A stretch of DNA of 48,037 nucleotides. Source: Halieaceae bacterium (GTDB lineage Bacteria; Pseudomonadota; Gammaproteobacteria; Pseudomonadales; Halieaceae). The first letter of the stretch is position 1. Every line of letters starts with the position of its first letter. The notes beneath the pieces were generated by a model, which saw nothing but the letters and a program-made list of their open reading frames with translations, was not told the DNA's origin and ran no database searches. Positions 2 to 16,498 of the stretch are shown piece by piece. The stretch covers positions 18,017 to 66,053 of the forward strand of contig JAHEEV010000009.1 in assembly GCA_024640505.1 (NCBI GenBank), in the 5' to 3' direction. The position numbers and the translations under genes are program-made.

Positions 2-1189
2 CTCGAGCAGGGTGTGGAAGCGGGGCTGGAGAGTGGCCTTGAGGAAACCGTTGCCGATGCGGCCGAGGAGAAGCTGGAGAGCGAGATCGACGAGATCCTC
101 GAGCGGATCGAGAGTGATTTCGAGGTCGATGAAGGCAGGATCCAGAAGGGCCAGTGGCTGGTCATGGCCGAACCCGAGGTCTTCGAGCAACTGGCGAAAG
201 AGGGTTATCTTTTCGATACGGTTACCGAACTTCCGGGTATGGGGTTGCGTCTTGCGGAAGTTGCGGCCCCGTCAAGTTTTGACATCAGCGCGGTGCGACA
301 GGGCGTCGTCGATGTGGTCGGCAGTGACCGGGCGGAGGTCGATCTTAACCACATCTACACAGCGGGTAACCCCGACTCATCTGCCGAATCGGATCAGGGC
401 GTGCAGCCCAGGGTTGCGATGCCACTGCCTGCCGATGCAGATCAGCTTCCCCTGCGCATCGGCATGATCGACAGCCAGGTGGATGTTACACACCCCGCTC
501 TGCGCAGCGCCCACATCTCCAGCAAATCCTTTGCTCCCGCCGGCTCAGTGCTGCCTGAATTTCACGGGACAGCCGTCGCTTCGATCATCGCGGCCAGCGA
601 CACGGACTTCCGTGGGCTGGCGCCGAATGCGGAGCTGTATGCTGCCGCGGTATTCGAGCAGGACGCTGTACGTGGCGAGATTGCGAGTACCGTCAGCCTG
701 GTCAGGGCACTGGACTGGCTGATCTCCTCCGGCGTCGATGTGGTCAACATCAGTCTTGCCGGTCCGCCCAACCGCTTGCTGGAAACAGCGCTCAAGCGGG
801 CGGCTGAGCATGATGTGATGATCCTTGCAGCTGCCGGCAATGGCGGGCCCGTAGCCCAGCCGATGTATCCGGCGGCCTACGATTCGGTCGTGGCGGTGAC
901 CGCCGTGGATGCGGCTGGGCAGGTTTTTCGGCTGGCCAACCGTGGCAAGTACCTGGATCTGTCCGCCCCGGGCGTCGGCATGCTGCATGCCAGGGCGGGT
1001 GGTGGCTACACTGCCTCGTCCGGAACATCCTTCGCCGTGCCGTTTGCGGCCACTGCTGCCGCGCGATTGCGCCAACTGCAACCGGGACAGGATGTGCTGA
1101 AGCTGCTGATCGAATCGGCCAAGGATCTCGGCCCACCCGGGCGTGACGATATTTACGGTTATGGCCTGGTGCGCCCCGCCAATTCCTGA
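2..1189 (+). CDS. S8 family serine peptidase (subtilase), 5' partial
   Basis: Subtilisin-type protease. Numbering from the GTG at 14, the catalytic triad is visible: Asp153 in GMIDSQVD, His184 in FHGTAVAS, Ser339 in SSGTSFAVP, with the oxyanion Asn276 in AAAGNGG. About 140 residues precede the catalytic domain; the first 45 are acidic and helical (possible coiled coil) and the rest resembles a subtilase propeptide-like lead-in. The reading frame stays open to the left edge of the window, so the true start is probably upstream and GTG 14 is only the first possible start seen. No signal peptide is visible in what remains. The protein ends shortly after the catalytic Ser subdomain, so it has no C-terminal extension. 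Fold and active site are certain; substrate and location are unknown. Confidence 0.9.
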   Translation, partial: LEQGVEAGLESGLEETVADAAEEKLESEIDEILERIESDFEVDEGRIQKGQWLVMAEPEVFEQLAKEGYLFDTVTELPGMGLRLAEVAAPSSFDISAVRQGVVDVVGSDRAEVDLNHIYTAGNPDSSAESDQGVQPRVAMPLPADADQLPLRIGMIDSQVDVTHPALRSAHISSKSFAPAGSVLPEFHGTAVASIIAASDTDFRGLAPNAELYAAAVFEQDAVRGEIASTVSLVRALDWLISSGVDVVNISLAGPPNRLLETALKRAAEHDVMILAAAGNGGPVAQPMYPAAYDSVVAVTAVDAAGQVFRLANRGKYLDLSAPGVGMLHARAGGGYTASSGTSFAVPFAATAAARLRQLQPGQDVLKLLIESAKDLGPPGRDDIYGYGLVRPANS

Positions 1190-9536: not shown

Positions 9537-10442
9537 TCAGTCGTTCACGCCGGGAAAGTGGTACTCATGCCCCCACAGGTCGCCCTCGGTGCTGACGGTG
9601 GGTACGTGGTTCTCCCAGTCGATGAGCAGGCCGTCGTAGCCGTATTCCACCGCGATGCCGCCGGGAGCGAGCACGTAGAAGGAGCACATGTTGTCGTTCA
9701 CATGCCGGCCCAGAGTGGCCAGATAGGGCAGCCCGGCCTGCTTCACCCGATCCATGGCCTTGCCCACCTCATCCATGCTCCCGACCTCCACCATCATATG
9801 CACCACGCCGGCGGGGTGGGGGCCGTTAAACAGGGCGAGGGAGTGCTGCCGGGGATTGTTCGCATGCATGAAGGTGATCTGTACGCCCTCCATACCCGGC
9901 GGGTAGAGGGTGTCGGTGATGCCCAGCCCGAGCAGATCCGTATAGAAAGCGATCGTTGCTTCGGTCTCCGGGGCTGGCAGCACGAGATGGCCGAAACCCA
10001 GGTCTCCGGTCTGTTGGTAGCTGGTGACGAAACCGGGTACGCCTGCGGCGGAATTGAGGGGGATGTAATCCAGTTCCCGGCCATGGTAGAGCTCGATCGT
10101 ATTACCTGAGGGATCCTGTACGGACGCGAAAGCGGTCACACAGCGACGGGCGGCCTCTTCACTGGAGCCGGGCGCCACCGTGTGCCCCGCGCCGGACAGG
10201 GCGTCGCAGGCAGCCTGCCAGTCAGCTTCGGAACGGAATTCCAGTCCCGCTGCCAGCAGCCTGTCGCCGTCGCCCGGTTCGATCATGAAGCGGAAGGGGT
10301 GGTCGTCCATGCGCAGGAATCGCGCTCCCTGTGTATCCTCGCGGGAAGCCTCCATCAGGCCCAGTACGCTGGTGCCGAACTCCATCCAGGCAGCGGTATC
10401 CGATGCCTCGATTCTCAAATATCCCGCGGCGGTGACTGACAT
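9537..10442 (-). CDS. type I extradiol ring-cleaving dioxygenase (BphC/HsaC-like)
   Basis: A 301-residue two-domain vicinal-oxygen-chelate protein. The C-terminal domain keeps the whole type I extradiol active site in order: iron ligands His152 (GFGHLVL), His215 (VVHMMVEV) and Glu266 (AVEYGYDG), plus acid/base residues His200 (RQHSLALFN), His247 (GRHVNDN) and Tyr256. The N-terminal domain (residues 1-125) is the non-catalytic repeat. Such enzymes cleave catechols next to the two hydroxyls, as in biphenyl (BphC) or steroid ring A (HsaC, TesB) degradation. The gene is divergent from the DUF35/thiolase-fold run, 266 bases away, which suggests shared control. The true catechol is unknown. Confidence 0.87.
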   Translation of the reverse strand: MSVTAAGYLRIEASDTAAWMEFGTSVLGLMEASREDTQGARFLRMDDHPFRFMIEPGDGDRLLAAGLEFRSEADWQAACDALSGAGHTVAPGSSEEAARRCVTAFASVQDPSGNTIELYHGRELDYIPLNSAAGVPGFVTSYQQTGDLGFGHLVLPAPETEATIAFYTDLLGLGITDTLYPPGMEGVQITFMHANNPRQHSLALFNGPHPAGVVHMMVEVGSMDEVGKAMDRVKQAGLPYLATLGRHVNDNMCSFYVLAPGGIAVEYGYDGLLIDWENHVPTVSTEGDLWGHEYHFPGVND

Positions 10443-10708
10443 CTCGTGTTCTCCTGTGTTGCGTGATCCAGCCCCGGGGACCTCAGGGTCGGGCAGGGCA
10501 GTGTGGCTCCATTATCGTGTATTTCTCTCGCGTGGACAGGCGTGCAGGCCAATTTCTTCTCGGGCTGGTATAAGTAACGCAACCTCTACCGCCAATCCGC
10601 GAAATGATCTTAAAAGTCACTGCCACCTGATCCCACACGTCATTGAGGCTTGCGCGAGGCTGCACGATACTCTCTCCCCCATCGTGTCAAACAGGGAGGG
10701 CCGCGAGC

Positions 10709-11155
10709 GTGTCGCAGCCGGAAGTCCTCAGCCAGGCGTTCGAGCTTGGTTTTACCTACACCCGTTCCACGGGTCCCGTGGTCGGTCGTTTCCTGACCGA
10801 ACTCAAAAACCGCAGAATCGTCGGCAACCGGGCCAGTGATGGCCGGGTGATCGTGCCGCCCATGGAGTACGACCCCGATACCGCCGCGGAACTGACCGAA
10901 TTTGTCGAGGTGGGTCAGGAAGGTGAGATCGTCAGTTTCGCCTGGGTCAAGCAGCCCAGGGAGGCGCACCCCATGGATAAACCCTTCGCCTGGGCGATGA
11001 TCAGGCTCGACGGGGCAGATATCCCGATGATTCATTGTGTGGCGGCGCAGGCCGAGGGCGACGTGGCCACCGGCGCCCGGGTGCGTGCGGTGTGGGCCGA
11101 TGAAACCCGCGGCTATATCAGTGACATCCGCTGCTTCGAACTGGTCCAGGAGTGA
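10709..11155 (+). CDS. DUF35 OB-fold protein, first copy (no zinc ribbon)
   Basis: A 148-residue DUF35-type protein. It begins with the helical lead FELGFTYTRSTGPVVGRFLTEL and continues into the OB-fold segment EGEIVSFAWVKQ...WAMIRLDGADIPMIHCVA...GARVRAVWAD. The four-cysteine rubredoxin-like knuckle of typical members is absent (the segment reads NRRIVGNRASDGRVIVPP). I set the start at GTG 10709 because GGGAGG lies nine bases upstream; longer readings lack a ribosome site. It is four bases from the second DUF35 gene. DUF35 proteins usually act as obligate partners of thiolase-fold enzymes, shaping the acyl-CoA channel. Confidence 0.83.
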   Translation: MSQPEVLSQAFELGFTYTRSTGPVVGRFLTELKNRRIVGNRASDGRVIVPPMEYDPDTAAELTEFVEVGQEGEIVSFAWVKQPREAHPMDKPFAWAMIRLDGADIPMIHCVAAQAEGDVATGARVRAVWADETRGYISDIRCFELVQE

Positions 11156-11159
11156 TGGT

Positions 11160-11675
11160 ATGAGTGAAGAACAGGACATGATTACCGGCATCGAGGCACC
11201 CATTTACCTCAAGTACAACTTCACCGCGGGGCGGGCCCCGGCGCGCTTCCTGTCCCAGCTGAAGCGGGGGGTCCTGACCGGGCAGCGCTGCCCCAGGTGC
11301 ACCAATGTCTATATACCCCCCCGTGGCTCCTGTGCCGCCTGCGGTATTGCGACCGAGGAGGAAGTGGCGTTGCCCGACAAGGGCACTGTGCAGTCGTTTA
11401 CCATCGTGTCGATACCGATTCCCAATAACCCCATCCAGCCCCCCTACGTCATTGCGAATCTCGTGCTGGACGGGGCCAATATCTCCTTCATCCATCTCTT
11501 GAGTGAATGCGTCAACGAGGAGGTTCATATCGGGCAGCGTATAGAGGCGGTGTGGAAGCCCGAGGAAGAGTGGGATTATGCGATGGACAACATCCGCTAT
11601 TTCAGGCCTATCGACGAGCCGGATGTGCCGGTGGAGATGATCGGCAAAGTACCCGCTTCGGGTTGGGAGGGCTAG
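11160..11675 (+). CDS. DUF35 OB-fold protein with zinc ribbon, second copy
   Basis: A 171-residue DUF35 protein starting at ATG 11160, where the preceding gene ends at 11155. It has the complete layout: an N-terminal helix (KYNFTAGRAPARFLSQLKRG), a zinc knuckle with two CxxC pairs (QRCPRCTNVYIPPRGSCAAC), then the OB-fold (GTVQSFTIVSIPIP...VIANLVLDGANISFIHLLS...GQRIEAVWKPEEE). It is the form that pairs with Ltp2-type aldolases in steroid side-chain degradation. It lies five bases before the first thiolase-fold gene, so the two are probably co-translated as partners. Confidence 0.87.
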   Translation: MSEEQDMITGIEAPIYLKYNFTAGRAPARFLSQLKRGVLTGQRCPRCTNVYIPPRGSCAACGIATEEEVALPDKGTVQSFTIVSIPIPNNPIQPPYVIANLVLDGANISFIHLLSECVNEEVHIGQRIEAVWKPEEEWDYAMDNIRYFRPIDEPDVPVEMIGKVPASGWEG

Positions 11676-11679
11676 CAGG

Positions 11680-12738
11680 ATGAGAGAAATTGCCATAGTG
11701 GCCTTCCACCAGTCGGACTGTATCTCCCACGCGGGCGCTGCCAACGAGGTGGAGCTGATCATGCCCCAGCTGCAGGCGGTCTATGAACAGGTGGGCATTA
11801 AGAACGCCCAGGATGTGGACTTCGTCTGTTCGGGCAGTTGTGATTACCTGCAGGGTGCAGCCTTTGCTTTCGTGTCCGGTGTGGACGCCCTGGGTGCCGT
11901 GCCGCCGATCAAGGAATCTCACGTGGAGATGGACGCGGCCTGGGCCCTGTACGAGGCCATGCTCAAAATCCGCATGGGCCACGCGGATTCCGCCCTGATT
12001 TACGGCTTCGGTAAGTCCTCTCCGGGTGAGCTGCCGATCGTCCTGTCACAGCAGCTGGACCCCTATTATTTGGCGCCCCAGTGGGTGGATACGATTTCCC
12101 TGGCGGCCATGCAGGCACGCATCATGCTCGAGAGCGGCGTAATTTCCGAGCGGGATATGGCGGAGGTCGTATCGCGCTCGCGCCGCAACGCCCGGGATAA
12201 TCCCCACGCACAGCTCAGTGGGGAACTCTCTGCAGACGATGTGCTGGCAGAAGAGACTTACGTTTCGCCCTTGCGCAAGGCGGACATCTGCCCGGTATCA
12301 GACGGCGCGTCGGCAATGATCATCTGTACGCCCGACAAGGCCCGGGCATGGGGTGTGCCCTACGCGTTGATCACCGGGATAGATCACCGCATAGAGACCC
12401 ACAACCTGGGGATGCGCGATCTCACCGATTCGGTTTCCACGCGTCTTGCTGCACAGGGAGCCGGTGTCAACGAGGGACAGGTGGATGTGGCAGAACTCTA
12501 CGCACCTTTCAGCCACCAGGAGATCATCCTGACCCGCGCCCTCGGCCTGGACGCGGGTACCCCCGTCAACCCGAGTGGCGGCGTACTGGCGGGCAACCTC
12601 ATGATGGCATCGGGCTTGTGCCGGATCGGCGAGGTGTTCAACCGCATCATCGCCGGTGAGGCGCAACGGGGGGTGGCCCATGCAACCAGCGGCCCCTGCC
12701 TGCAACACAACCTGGTAACTGTCCTGGAGCGTGCGTAA
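11680..12738 (+). CDS. thiolase-fold protein (SCP2/Ltp-like), probably aldolase-type, A
   Basis: A 352-residue SCP2-thiolase/lipid-transfer-type protein. The region where thiolases carry the acyl-accepting Cys reads SHVEMDAAWALYEAM, with no Cys. The canonical NEAF/HDCF motif is ELYAPFS, putting Tyr274 where thiolases have Asn or His, and the GHP loop reads AGNLMMASG (Asn306). A Cys remains near the C-terminus (SGPCLQHN). Loss of the nucleophilic Cys together with a Tyr at this site is a feature of the Ltp2-type retro-aldolases, which split beta-hydroxyacyl-CoA side chains together with a DUF35 partner. Two DUF35 genes lie directly upstream. Aldolase activity is inferred; the fold is certain. 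Confidence 0.83.
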   Translation: MREIAIVAFHQSDCISHAGAANEVELIMPQLQAVYEQVGIKNAQDVDFVCSGSCDYLQGAAFAFVSGVDALGAVPPIKESHVEMDAAWALYEAMLKIRMGHADSALIYGFGKSSPGELPIVLSQQLDPYYLAPQWVDTISLAAMQARIMLESGVISERDMAEVVSRSRRNARDNPHAQLSGELSADDVLAEETYVSPLRKADICPVSDGASAMIICTPDKARAWGVPYALITGIDHRIETHNLGMRDLTDSVSTRLAAQGAGVNEGQVDVAELYAPFSHQEIILTRALGLDAGTPVNPSGGVLAGNLMMASGLCRIGEVFNRIIAGEAQRGVAHATSGPCLQHNLVTVLERA

Positions 12739-13901
12739 TGGCTGAGTTGGCAGCAGTGGTCGGTATCGGCCAGACGAAATACACCACCAAGCGCGGCGAC
12801 GTATCCATCGCGGGCCTGGTCCGCGAGGCAGCAGTCAACGCCCTGCAGGACGCCGCCCTGGATTGGGACGACATCGACGCCGTCATCATCGGCAAAGCGC
12901 CGGATATGTTCGAAGGCATCGTCATGCCCGAGATCTACCTGACGGACGCGCTGGGCTGCAATGGCAAACCCATGTTGCGTGTCCATACCGCCGGGTCCGT
13001 GGGCGGTTCCACGGCCCTGGTGGCCGCCTCCCATGTGCAGAGCGGCACATTCCGGCGCGTGCTGACGGTGGCTTTCGAAAAGCAGTCCGAATCGAATGCC
13101 ATGTGGGCGCTGTCCACACCACAGCCCTTTTCCGTGCATCTGAACGCCGGGGCGGGGGGGTATTTTGCACCGATTATCCGCGAGTACATTCGGCGCTCCG
13201 GTGCGCCCTATGACGTCGGCATCAAGGTCGCGGTCAAGGATCGCCTGCACGGTGCCCGCAATCCGCTCTCCCATTTGCAGAAACCGGATATCACCATGAA
13301 GGAGGTGGAAGAGTCCTTCATGCTGTGGGATCCCATTCGCTTCCTCGAATCCTGCCCCTCCTCTGACGGCGCCTGTGCCATGGTCATTGCCAACGAGGAG
13401 CTGGCCGGGGAGTCGCCCAAGCCACCGGCCTGGATCCGCGGCGTGGCCATGCGTTCGGAGCCCACCATGTACGCCGGTCGCGAGGAGGTGAGCCCGCAGG
13501 CGGGGCGCGACTGTGCGGCGGATGTCTACCGGCAGGCTGGTATCACCGATCCGCGCAGGGACCTGGACTGCGCCGAGGTCTATGTACCCTTCAGCTGGTA
13601 CGAACCGATGTGGCTGGAAAACCTGGGCTTTGCCCCGGAGGGTGAGGGCTGGAAGCTGACCATGGAGGGGGCGACCTCGCTGGATGAGGGTGGCGACATT
13701 CCCTGGAACTGTTCCGGGGGCGTGCTCTCGTCCAACCCGATCGGCGCCTCCGGCATGATCCGCTTCGCGGAAGCGGCGCGACAGGTCCGCGGTGATGCCG
13801 GCGCACACCAGGTGGAGGGGGCGAAACTGGCCCTGGGTCACGCTTACGGCGGCGGCGCACAGTTCTTTGCCATGTGGGTCGTCGGTGCCGAAAAATCCTG
13901 A
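12738..13901 (+). CDS. thiolase-fold protein (SCP2/Ltp-like), probably aldolase-type, B
   Basis: A 387-residue protein whose ATG overlaps the previous stop (TAATG). It begins like the Ltp group (AAVVGIGQTKYTTKRGD). The active-site Cys position reads VHTAGSVGGSTAL, without Cys. The acid/base motif is EVYVPFS (Tyr282), the GHP loop is SSNPIGASG (Asn333), and the C-terminal CxG of thiolases is replaced by AYGGGAQFF. It therefore lacks every catalytic residue of a normal thiolase but keeps the CoA-site glycines. As with copy A, a DUF35-dependent C-C lyase role is the best guess. With two DUF35 and two such proteins, the operon may encode two heteromers or one four-part complex. Confidence 0.83.
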   Translation: MAELAAVVGIGQTKYTTKRGDVSIAGLVREAAVNALQDAALDWDDIDAVIIGKAPDMFEGIVMPEIYLTDALGCNGKPMLRVHTAGSVGGSTALVAASHVQSGTFRRVLTVAFEKQSESNAMWALSTPQPFSVHLNAGAGGYFAPIIREYIRRSGAPYDVGIKVAVKDRLHGARNPLSHLQKPDITMKEVEESFMLWDPIRFLESCPSSDGACAMVIANEELAGESPKPPAWIRGVAMRSEPTMYAGREEVSPQAGRDCAADVYRQAGITDPRRDLDCAEVYVPFSWYEPMWLENLGFAPEGEGWKLTMEGATSLDEGGDIPWNCSGGVLSSNPIGASGMIRFAEAARQVRGDAGAHQVEGAKLALGHAYGGGAQFFAMWVVGAEKS

Positions 13902-13913
13902 GGGGAACAGACC

Positions 13914-15542
13914 ATGGCCAAACACATTAATCTCGCCGATCTCTTCGAGTTGGTGGCCGACCGGGTGCCGGCCCGCGATGCCCTGGTGTGCGGAGAACAG
14001 CGGGCTACCTTTGGTGAACTGGAACAACGCGCCAACCGGCTTGCTCACTACCTGGCGAAACAGGGCGTTGGGGCAGGGGACCATGTCGGTCTCTACCTCT
14101 ACAACTGTAACGAGTACCTGGAGGGCATGCTCGCCTGCTTCAAGATCCGGGCCGTACCGATCAATGTCAATTACCGCTACGTCGATGAGGAGCTGCTGTA
14201 TATCTTCGACAACGCGGACATGGTGGCGTGCATCCATCACCAGGAGTTCGCACCCCATATCGCCGAGGTGATCGGCTCGGTTCCGGACCTGAGGACGCTG
14301 GTCTACGTTGCCGATGAATCCGGTGCCGATGCGTCCCCTATCGACTCGGTAGAGTACGAGCGCGCCATTGAGGGTCAGGACGCAGACCGTGATTTCCCCG
14401 AGCGAGCCGACGATGACCTGTTCATCCTCTACACCGGCGGCACCACCGGTATGCCCAAGGGTGTGATGTGGCCCCACAAGTCCGTCTTCTACGCCGCCAT
14501 GGGCGGCGGCGGGTGGTTCCATCCCGACGGCGCCATTACAGCACCCGAGCAGATCGCCGACCGGGTTGGCGATTTCCCCATCGTAGGCATGGCTCTGGCG
14601 CCCCTGATGCATGGTGCCTGCTGGTGGTATGCCTGCATTCAGCTCCTGGCCGGGAACAGCGTGATACTCAACCCCCACCACTCGCTGGTGGGTGAGCAGG
14701 TCTGGGATATCGTTGAGCGGGAGAAGGTCAACTCTATCTCCATCGTCGGCGATGCCATGGCCGTACCCCTGCTCGATGCGCTGGAGGCCAACCCGGAACG
14801 CTGGGATCTCAGCTCCGTGTTCAACGTGGGGTCCGGCGGGGCGGTTTTCTCCGAGAGTAAACAGGAGGCGTTCCGTCAGCACTTTCCCAACGTGTTCATT
14901 TCCAACTCCTTCGGCTCCTCCGAGAGCGGCAACATGGGCTTCGACGGCGGCGGCAAGAAGGGCCAGGGCCTGGGCAATGTCGTCAAGAGCGAGTTCATGT
15001 CGGTGATCACGGACGTGGAGGGAGAGCCCCACCGCCATGTGGAACACGGGGAAACGGGTATCTTCGCTCGCAGCGGATATATTCCTGTGGGCTATTACAA
15101 CGACCCGGAAAAAACGGCCCGCACCATCGTCGAGGTGGAGGGCAAACCGTGGCTGTTACTGGGCGATGAGGCCCGCCTGGAGGAGGACGACAGCATCACG
15201 GTTTTCGGTCGCGGTTCCAACTGCATCAATACCGGTGGGGAAAAAGTATTTCCCGAAGAGGTAGAGCAGGCACTCAAGTCGCACCCGGATATTTTTGACT
15301 GCCTCGTGGTAGCCACCCCCGACGAGCGCTTCGGCAGCAAGGTAACGGCGGTGGTGCAGGTTCGCGGCGACGCCCAGCTGGACCTGGCGTCGTTACAGGA
15401 GGAGGCGCGCAAACATATTGCGGGTTACAAGGTGCCGCGGGAACTGCATGTGGTAGACGAAGTGCCTCGCGCCCCCAGCGGCAAGCCCGCCTACCCGAAA
15501 GCGCTGGAAATCGCGCTTTGCGGTGACCACAAGGTCGCGTAA
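13914..15542 (+). CDS. acyl-CoA synthetase (AMP-forming)
   Basis: A 542-residue ANL-superfamily ligase. Motifs in order: the P-loop YTGGTTGMPKG at about residues 172-182, SFGSSESGNMG (A5-like), the hinge region GDEARLEEDD...FGRGSNCINTGGEKVFPEEVE (A8) and the catalytic Lys in APSGKPAYPK at about residue 523 (A10). It activates a carboxylic acid to its CoA ester. GGGGAA upstream is a fair ribosome site, and the gene follows thiolase-fold copy B by 12 bases, so it probably primes the substrate that the DUF35/thiolase-fold and crotonase enzymes process. FadD3- and FadD19-type steroid ligases have this size, but substrate cannot be read from sequence. Confidence 0.9.
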   Translation: MAKHINLADLFELVADRVPARDALVCGEQRATFGELEQRANRLAHYLAKQGVGAGDHVGLYLYNCNEYLEGMLACFKIRAVPINVNYRYVDEELLYIFDNADMVACIHHQEFAPHIAEVIGSVPDLRTLVYVADESGADASPIDSVEYERAIEGQDADRDFPERADDDLFILYTGGTTGMPKGVMWPHKSVFYAAMGGGGWFHPDGAITAPEQIADRVGDFPIVGMALAPLMHGACWWYACIQLLAGNSVILNPHHSLVGEQVWDIVEREKVNSISIVGDAMAVPLLDALEANPERWDLSSVFNVGSGGAVFSESKQEAFRQHFPNVFISNSFGSSESGNMGFDGGGKKGQGLGNVVKSEFMSVITDVEGEPHRHVEHGETGIFARSGYIPVGYYNDPEKTARTIVEVEGKPWLLLGDEARLEEDDSITVFGRGSNCINTGGEKVFPEEVEQALKSHPDIFDCLVVATPDERFGSKVTAVVQVRGDAQLDLASLQEEARKHIAGYKVPRELHVVDEVPRAPSGKPAYPKALEIALCGDHKVA

Positions 15543-15551
15543 TTATTGTCT

Positions 15552-15649
15552 GTAGGAGCCCGGAGCCTGCCCCGCTTTACCGGGTGCTCCGCGGGCGATT
15601 GTTGCGAGCGATTGTACCAGGAACAATCGCTCGCGGAGCGAGCTCCTAC
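15552..15649. repeat. REP/BIME-like inverted repeat
   Basis: The outer arms are GTAGGAGC (15552-15559) and GCTCCTAC (15642-15649). Inside is a perfect 10-bp stem, GAGCGATTGT (15606-15615) with ACAATCGCTC (15623-15632), around a 7-base loop, and a further GCTCCGC/GCGGAGC pairing. The TGTAGGAGC head is typical of REP elements in pseudomonads and relatives. It lies between the ligase and crotonase genes, where it could trim or stabilise the transcript. Confidence 0.75.
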
Positions 15650-15679
15650 GAGGGTTCATACAGAATAGCGGAACGACTC

Positions 15680-16498
15680 ATGCCCGAACTGGATATCAGC
15701 ACCAAGAACTGCATCGTCGAACAGGACGGCCACGTCCTGATCGTCACCCTCAATCGCCCCGAGGCGAAAAACGCCTTCAGCCCGGAGATGCTGCTTGGCA
15801 TGTACAAGGCCTGGCGCCTGCTGGATGAGGACGATGACCTGTACTGCGCCATCCTCACCGCCAACGGCGACACCTTCTGTGCGGGCATGGATCTCAAGGC
15901 GGGTGCTGAGGGCCAGCAGCGCTCCACCGAGGAGTTCATGGAAATCATGGGCAAGGTGCCCAACGTGCACTGGCAGGCCCTGCTCAGGGATAACCGCCCC
16001 CACAAGCCACTGATCCTGGCGGTGGAGGGCTATGCGCTGGCGGGCGGCACCGAGATACTGCAGGGCACCGATATCCGGGTGGCGGCGGAAAATGCCATTT
16101 TCGGCATCACCGAGGTGGCGCGCGGTCTGTATCCCATGTCCGGCTCCACCATTCGCCTGCGGCGCCAGATTCCCTACTGCCTGGCAGCGGAGATGCTGCT
16201 CTGCGCCGAGCATATTACCGCGCAGCAGGCCCTCGACTTCGGACTGATCAACAAGGTAGTTCCGGCAGGGCAGACCCTCGCCGCGGCCAGGGAATACGCG
16301 CAGAAGATCTGTGCTAATGCACCCCTGTCCGTGAAAGCCGTAACCCGCTCGCTGCGTGAGCACCAGGAGTGCATGGGCGAGGAGGATGCCATGGTAGCCT
16401 CCGACGAGCTGGCGGGACCGGTGTTCGCGTCCAACGACGCGAAAGAGGGAATGAAGGCCTTCAAGGAGAAACGGGAGGCGAAATTTACCGGTAGCTGA
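15680..16498 (+). CDS. enoyl-CoA hydratase/isomerase family protein (crotonase A)
   Basis: A 272-residue crotonase starting at ATG 15680. It shows the N-terminal strand LIVTLNRPEAKNAFS, the first oxyanion segment FCAGMDLKAGAEG, the second oxyanion segment YALAGGTEILQGTDIRVA, a catalytic-type Glu in FGITEVARGLYPMSG, and the C-terminal helices KEGMKAFKEKREAKF. This carries one of the two Glu positions of true hydratases; the first is replaced (LQGTD), so hydratase, isomerase or hydrolase activity remain open. A REP-like element separates it from the ligase gene. Probably it acts on the CoA ester formed there. Confidence 0.86.
   Translation: MPELDISTKNCIVEQDGHVLIVTLNRPEAKNAFSPEMLLGMYKAWRLLDEDDDLYCAILTANGDTFCAGMDLKAGAEGQQRSTEEFMEIMGKVPNVHWQALLRDNRPHKPLILAVEGYALAGGTEILQGTDIRVAAENAIFGITEVARGLYPMSGSTIRLRRQIPYCLAAEMLLCAEHITAQQALDFGLINKVVPAGQTLAAAREYAQKICANAPLSVKAVTRSLREHQECMGEEDAMVASDELAGPVFASNDAKEGMKAFKEKREAKFTGS

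Follow-up and report, generated by a model that had tools for sequence, protein, structure and literature searches.

A four-gene DUF35 and thiolase-fold block in a Halieaceae bacterium, a probable split-gene counterpart of the actinobacterial Rv3521-Ltp4-Ltp3 set

The block and its actinobacterial relatives

A 48,037-nucleotide stretch of the genome of a Halieaceae bacterium (GCA_024640505.1, contig JAHEEV010000009.1; the whole stretch is referred to here as the window) carries four genes that nearly touch one another on the plus strand, two coding for DUF35 proteins (DUF35a and DUF35b; 29% identity over 137 columns) and two for thiolase-fold proteins (T4 and T3; 31% over 190 columns), with one base common to the T4 stop and the T3 start (Table 1). 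Judged by family model, tree and gene order, the block is taken to be the orthologous, split-gene form of the actinobacterial Rv3521-Ltp4-Ltp3 block, and we consider it probable (roughly 0.7) that their products form a single heteromeric aldol-lyase, the ortholog of Rv3521, Ltp4 and Ltp3 together, which acts on C24-branched sterol side chains.

Table 1. Features of the block and its neighbours in the window (positions counted from the first base of the window).
Feature	Position	Strand	Description
DUF35a	10709(GTG)-11155	+	OB-fold DUF35 protein lacking a zinc ribbon, 148 aa
DUF35a ribbon-equivalent stretch	10814..10900	+	Cys-free in the window
DUF35b	11160..11675	+	zinc ribbon and OB fold, 171 aa
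DUF35b zinc ribbon	11289..11342	+	Cys44-x2-Cys47-x10-Cys58-x2-Cys61
T4, Ltp4-like thiolase-fold protein	11680..12738	+	352 aa, PRK07937
T4 Glu83	11926..11928	+	nucleophile-Cys position
T4 Tyr274	12499..12501	+	HDCF His position, variable
T4 Asn306	12595..12597	+	GHP His position
T3, Ltp3-like thiolase-fold protein	12738..13901	+	387 aa, PRK08313
T3 Gly86	12993..12995	+	nucleophile-Cys position
T3 Tyr282	13581..13583	+	proposed catalytic base, aligned to HDCF His
T3 Asn333	13734..13736	+	GHP His position
Acyl-CoA ligase	13914..15542	+	PRK07798, FadD19-like by position, probable operon partner
Enoyl-CoA hydratase	15584..16498	+	PRK07799, EchA19-like
Extradiol dioxygenase	9537..10442	-	HsaC/BphC type, divergent from the block

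T4 scored 480.1 bits against the NCBIfam model PRK07937 (Ltp4; cut-off 419) and T3 670.2 bits against PRK08313 (Ltp3; cut-off 514), which places each within its family. Because both scores lie above cut-off and the gene order matches, Ltp4 and Ltp3 coming after two DUF35 domains on the same strand, the block was assigned to the Rv3521-Ltp4-Ltp3 form. In the named Actinobacteria the order is the same, a single fused double-DUF35 protein preceding Ltp4 and Ltp3, and the Tsukamurella and Streptomyces clavuligerus proteins of matching gene order also passed PRK07937 and PRK08313. The identification relies on family models, gene order and published names, with Rhodococcus jostii, Tsukamurella and others standing in for Mycobacterium tuberculosis and Rhodococcus rhodochrous; the names are those of PMC6429209, which lists Rv3521 (conserved hypothetical), ltp4 (Rv3522), ltp3 (Rv3523), fadD19 (Rv3515c) and echA19 (Rv3516) (papers are cited here by PMC number, for the parts of their text that were available). 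The R. jostii locus, as we read it, runs LLM-type oxidoreductase, double DUF35, Ltp4, Ltp3, the order listed for Rv3520c-Rv3523. T3 shares 63-68% identity with 22 actinobacterial rows and T4 47-56% with 30, and the same numbers of actinobacterial rows were used for structure prediction. The T4 prediction is a thiolase fold (AlphaFold2, mean predicted local distance difference test score, pLDDT, 85.7; Foldseek match to 6et9_C, E 1.4e-28, template modelling score 0.89 by query length).

The phylogenetic comparison comprised 53 rows (both proteins from 20 of the 120 loci described below, the window, eight PDB chains and three paralogues), and the tree carries a program warning on long branches. 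Each of T3 and T4 clusters with its actinobacterial copies in a clade of its own (support 100/100 for both), apart from the other thiolase folds, and TcLtp2, an Ltp2-like protein from the window's own genome, CtSal and 4u4e form a separate clade (100/100). An earlier, sequence-only reading of this DNA, made without database searches, had proposed such a phylogeny as a check and likened both proteins to the Ltp2 type. That likeness does not stand, as the closest relatives are Ltp3 and Ltp4 with Rv3521, and T3, T4 and Ltp2 plus Sal fall into three separate clades; membership of the Ltp2 type is ruled out by the tree, where neither protein groups with TcLtp2, and by the residues described below.

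Among 194 genomes from the window's order (thresholds E 1e-40 for T4 and E 1e-100 for T3, or better), T4 and T3 were each found in 35 (34 over cut-off), and the two lists of genomes are identical, neither protein being found apart from the other. T4 occurred in 1 of the 299 genomes of a phylum sample, the window's own only, and no T4 relatives were found in viral contigs. Thirty-six loci were taken from the other 34 T4-positive genomes of the order, and 84 from Actinobacteria. The actinobacterial sample is non-random (the best 80 of 586 relatives of a Tsukamurella-headed T3 alignment, plus four records from a plasmid collection); as far as the contigs reach, it holds T3 in 84/84 loci and T4 in 82/84. 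The recurrence of T3 and T4 in 35 of the 194 genomes and in the actinobacterial loci shows that the run seen earlier, two DUF35 genes directly before two thiolase folds, is real. One Ltp3 gene comes from a genome with the title MAG Bifidobacterium breve, where its 3.7 kb contig is likely an actinobacterial stray in the assembly.

The DUF35 pair and the thiolase-fold active sites

The two DUF35 proteins differ in their zinc ligands. DUF35b matched both PF01796 (OB_ChsH2_C) and PF12172 (zf-ChsH2), and DUF35a matched PF01796 (46.9 bits) with no zf-ChsH2 match, so that of the two marks of a ChsH2-type protein, an OB fold and a four-ligand zinc ribbon, DUF35b has both and DUF35a the OB fold only. 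The absence of a ribbon from the first copy, remarked on from the sequence alone, extends well beyond the window: of 117 rows, 108 have no Cys in the ribbon stretch of DUF35a, eight have one and one has two. At least three Cys remain in the DUF35b ribbon in 23/36 rows of the window's order (window included) and in 21/81 actinobacterial rows, while 60/81 actinobacterial rows have none. A C4 ribbon spaced like that of DUF35b is described in PMC12329534, where the DUF35 domains compared bind zinc through four Cys and Shy through three Cys and one His; against that set, a DUF35 half without zinc ligands is unusual.

In the loci of the order the DUF35 genes are separate in 26 and fused in nine, one contig being too short (27/36 split with the window), and in Actinobacteria a fusion was seen in 81/81 classifiable loci; the other 3/84 have no readable DUF35, and their match lies near a contig end. 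Two genomes of our collection (G165 and G187) carry two copies of the block each, the DUF35 genes being fused in one copy and split in the other (L053/L062 and L054/L061). Two OB_ChsH2_C stretches lie in one protein 5' of the thiolase folds in Tsukamurella, where it measures 320 aa, and in R. jostii, where it measures 340 aa; the double domain of S. clavuligerus and the remaining loci was identified by BLAST. The R. jostii Rv3521-type protein (L150, 3447-4469) carries a pair of DUF35/OB domains of the ChsH2 type, as is typical of proteins that partner thiolase folds; PMC9782250 names the double-DUF35 gene of R. jostii RHA1 as RHA1_RS22865. In 90/90 fusions DUF35a best matches the N-terminal and DUF35b the C-terminal domain, with a linker of 10-55 residues (median 25) between them, and proteins of the Rv3521 type are accordingly described here, from sequence comparison, as two predicted DUF35 domains collinear with DUF35a-DUF35b.

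Alignment with solved thiolases places Glu83 of T4 opposite the nucleophile Cys of 6esq and Gly86 of T3 opposite that of the SCP2-thiolase 6hsj, in keeping with the earlier observation that both folds lack Cys at the acyl-accepting position. At the HDCF motif T4 reads Tyr274-Ala-Pro-Phe and T3 Tyr282-Val-Pro-Phe, with Pro276 and Pro284 at the Cys position, and the His of the GHP motif is replaced by Asn306 and Asn333; the Tyr and Asn substitutions had likewise been picked out correctly, T4 position 274 being variable in the wider family. In T3 (120 rows) Tyr282 is Tyr in all 119 rows with a letter, as are Pro284, Trp287 and Glu289 invariant (119/119 each), Asn333 (118/118) and Gly86 (120/120). 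At T4 position 274, 76 of the 119 rows carry His, 41 carry Tyr and one each Asn and Asp (His in 61/82 actinobacterial rows), and position 306 is Asn in 107 and His in 12; Glu83 and Asp85 of T4 are invariant (118/118 rows with a letter). No relation was seen between loss of the DUF35b zinc ligands and Tyr or His at T4 position 274 as a clue to pairing (six independent pairs, median sign-test p 1). A Cys in the C-terminal loop of T4, Cys340, is kept in 35/36 lettered rows of the window's order and in 3/82 actinobacterial rows, and is therefore not a catalytic Cys of the family as a whole; an active-site Cys, which would have told against the aldolase proposal, was thus found by alignment in neither protein.

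The residue pairs of the two known aldolase types are also absent. TcLtp2 (6ok1) Tyr344, by count along the alignment, falls at the GHP His position, which is Asn here (Asn306/Asn333), so the Tyr-Tyr pair of Ltp2 is in neither T3 nor T4. The Tyr-Cys pair of Sal (Tyr302, Cys304) is likewise in neither, Pro276/Pro284 taking the place of the Cys, and Sal membership, marked by YDCY with its catalytic Cys, was rejected for both. Since Tyr282 of T3 never varies whereas position 274 of T4 does, T3 is more likely than T4 to be the catalyst. Proton-donor candidates in T3 are a guess at this stage: invariant Glu289 or His83, or His368 (116/118 rows).

Gene neighbourhood and steroid context

Directly 3' of the block on the plus strand lie a ligase (664 bits against PRK07798, cut-off 543) and then a hydratase (337.9 bits against PRK07799, cut-off 316). 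PRK07798 is, we assume, the FadD19 family. The S. clavuligerus ligase also passes PRK07798 (723.7, cut-off 543), and the Tsukamurella hydratase passes the EchA19 model (428.4, cut-off 400). The dioxygenase on the other side of the block scored alike against HsaC (256.7 bits, cut-off 450) and the BphC-type model TIGR03213, biphenyl-2,3-diol dioxygenase (255.3, cut-off 366), and is therefore named HsaC/BphC-type. No inverted repeats of at least eight bases were found in 10440-10730, and a scan of the window with our own KstR-like operator pattern gave two matches, with two mismatches, at 35.8 kb and none near the block.

Elsewhere in the window's genome an Ltp2-like protein (PRK07855, 556.9 bits, cut-off 469) is encoded on contig C119 within an igr-like group (L070 1161-7306 and 6-1148) of a MaoC-like protein, a DUF35-MaoC fusion, two acyl-CoA dehydrogenases and the Ltp2-like protein; the MaoC labels are our own reading, NCBIfam giving no family at the threshold used. 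This Ltp2-like protein has YDAF in place of YDHF, and the group includes a second Ltp2-like gene. In the 4.2 Mb assembly 24 stretches match the cytochrome P450 family (about 21 genes, some stretches sharing a frame), which we regard as many. A further DUF35-thiolase pair adjoins a Rieske-type oxygenase (weak NCBIfam match) on contig C155 (L068 6196-10639), where another neighbour presumably is an oxygenase of the carotenoid-cleavage type.

Proposed activity and alternatives

In the proposed pathway a C24-branched sterol side chain would be converted to its CoA ester by the FadD19-like ligase and desaturated; hydration by the EchA-like hydratase would then give a C24-hydroxyacyl-CoA that beta-oxidation cannot process. 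Tyr282 of T3 would take the hydroxyl proton, the C24-C25 bond would break and a short acyl-CoA would leave. T4 would pair with T3 as the diverged half of a heterodimer, probably assisting or without catalysis of its own; one DUF35 would clasp each half, the zinc ribbon being present in one DUF35 only. Tyr282 is the likely base because it stands at the same place as the Tyr of Ltp2 and Sal, which is catalytic in both (PMC12329534); the part of helper would fall to T4 because its Tyr is not kept. A heterodimer flanked by DUF35a and DUF35b is suggested by the Sal arrangement, in which two DUF35 stand around a dimer, and a C24-hydroxylated, C24-branched steroid-CoA as substrate by the neighbouring genes and by the genetics of Ltp3/Ltp4, branched-side-chain sterols reportedly requiring both in R. 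rhodochrous (PMC6273163, PMC6678751).

A heteromeric Ltp3-Ltp4 aldol-lyase cutting C24-C25 is already given in a review (PMC6678751), and the kind of enzyme is known; what is added here is the assignment of the DUF35 pair to Ltp3-Ltp4, the asymmetry in zinc and in the thiolase folds, and the presence in a proteobacterial order. The possible four-part complex once described as little reported fits the co-occurrence and the DUF35 fusions. The fuller picture is more tentative, and we put it a little short of even: an asymmetric steroid aldolase in which T3:T4 is held by one zinc-bearing DUF35 and one that lacks a zinc ribbon in all members seen, T4 with its Glu83 does not catalyse, Rv3521 is the fused clasp spanning the heterodimer, and the system serves the proteobacterial order too, its single Tyr282 site being a third catalytic arrangement because Tyr282 stands without the Sal Cys or the second Ltp2 Tyr.

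The nearest known system is the Rv3521-Ltp4 (Rv3522)-Ltp3 (Rv3523) block, which the window resembles in NCBIfam families (two actinobacteria tested), gene order and DUF35 collinearity; it differs in that the window encodes the DUF35 halves separately, the C4 ribbon is kept in the window's DUF35b and T4 has Tyr at 274, where most actinobacterial copies have His (61/82). The Ltp2-ChsH2(DUF35) aldolase (6ok1) shares the thiolase fold, the Tyr at the HDCF His, a DUF35 partner and presumably the mode of action, but forms its own clade; the window has Asn for Tyr344, Pro for the His of YDHF, and two DUF35 and two thiolase folds. The Sal-Shy(DUF35) bile acid aldolase (9myr) shares the Tyr of its YDCY motif and, with T3, Gly at the nucleophile position, whereas the window lacks the Cys after the Tyr and the MaoC fusion and falls in a separate clade. 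Finally, BbsAB (benzoylsuccinyl-CoA thiolase, 7pxp), PhlABC (5m3k) and the archaeal ACAT/HMGCS-DUF35 complex (6esq) also join DUF35 and thiolase-fold subunits in one complex (PMC12329534), but the nucleophile-position Cys is retained in 7pxp and 6esq, and the available text of PMC12329534 describes no second, zinc-free DUF35 for any of them.

Several observations weigh against a branched-sterol aldol-lyase. Neither model's second catalytic residue is present in T3 (Pro284 for Sal Cys304, Asn333 for Ltp2 Tyr344), the predicted structure of T3 is poor (pLDDT 69.4) and was left out of the fold search, and the invariant Glu83 of T4 could serve chemistry of its own. The window's hydratase falls below the EchA19 cut-off (326.7 against 400), as does the dioxygenase below that of HsaC, and in Tsukamurella the ligase adjoining the block resembles FadD8 (680.9 bits, cut-off 875). 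A neighbouring ligase and hydratase are common within the order (a window-like ligase, 3' of T3, in 20/36 loci; a hydratase in 18/36) and patchy in the fetched actinobacterial flanks, mostly of 5 kb (14/84 and 20/84). The association with other steroid genes, which speaks for the proposal, is counted without correction for kinship, both for HsaC-model matches (E 1e-50 or better, none over cut-off; 33/35 T4-positive genomes against 24/159 others, Fisher p 1.6e-19) and for Ltp2-like genes (E 1e-80 or better; 25/35 against 12/159, Fisher p 8.2e-15), and at the latter threshold no Ltp2-like gene was found in 10/35 T4-positive genomes. In M. neoaurum WIII, ltp3 or ltp4 knockouts still made 4-HBC from phytosterols (PMC10398937), and the set is therefore not needed for every phytosterol route.

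That knockout result also favours the most durable alternative, namely that the same kind of enzyme performs retro-aldol cleavage of another hydroxyacyl-CoA, with a bile acid, terpenoid or aromatic side chain. The host's P450 stretches and other DUF35-thiolase pairs, and a dioxygenase that fits the HsaC and BphC models about equally, would agree with it; the PRK07798-type ligase and EchA19-like hydratase adjoining the block both here and at many of the order's loci, the PRK07798 ligase of S. clavuligerus and the association with Ltp2-like genes argue against it, and we regard it as unlikely, at about one chance in a few. A little less likely again are two separate aldolases, one of the options of the earlier reading; here DUF35a or DUF35b would each join T4 or T3 in an independent homodimeric enzyme, and the two enzymes would handle consecutive hydroxyacyl-CoA intermediates. 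In both the Sal-DUF35 complex and the Ltp2 complex compared with it, a heterotetramer is built on a single kind of aldolase (PMC12329534), and Glu83 and Asp85 of T4 may serve a chemistry of its own, but T3 was never found without T4, nor T4 without T3, among the 194 genomes, fusion joins the DUF35 pair in 81/81 classifiable actinobacterial loci and 9/35 loci of the order, and T4 has no conserved Tyr. A DUF35-dependent steroid aldolase remains the best reading of the block, in the singular, since only T3 keeps its Tyr throughout. Ordinary SCP2-type thiolases with a DUF35 scaffold, in line with annotation names (lipid-transfer protein, thiolase domain-containing) and fold matches, are very improbable and were rejected for the missing Cys, as the nucleophile is absent (Glu83, Gly86), the HDCF Cys is Pro, the C-terminal-loop Cys is unconserved and the GHP His is Asn.

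The comparison yields a testable partner for Ltp3/Ltp4 (the Rv3521-type double DUF35), a likely active subunit and a target for mutation, and the block offers a genetic marker by which the breakdown of branched sterols could be traced beyond Actinobacteria. A survey published in 2016 gave no evidence of cholesterol catabolism via the 9,10-seco pathway in Proteobacteria (PMC4810484, as far as its available text goes); cholesterol-degrading gammaproteobacteria were later isolated from sponges (PMC5790920). In the open-licence literature we found no paper naming Rv3521 and DUF35 together, and subscription papers may say more; nor did we meet there, in the text available, a structure or purified-enzyme assay of Ltp3/Ltp4. 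Products of the Rv3521 type are called hypothetical in PMC9782250, where the Saccharopolyspora hirsuta homologue is suggested to bind DNA, Rv3521 is mentioned with an intergenic motif in PMC1995591, and PMC10398937, the one paper found to name both ltp4 and DUF35, pairs the DUF35 protein ChsH4 with a different aldolase, Atf1. At the far 5' end of the window (14-1189), a subtilisin-like protease resembles mycosin (146 bits, below the cut-off of 279).

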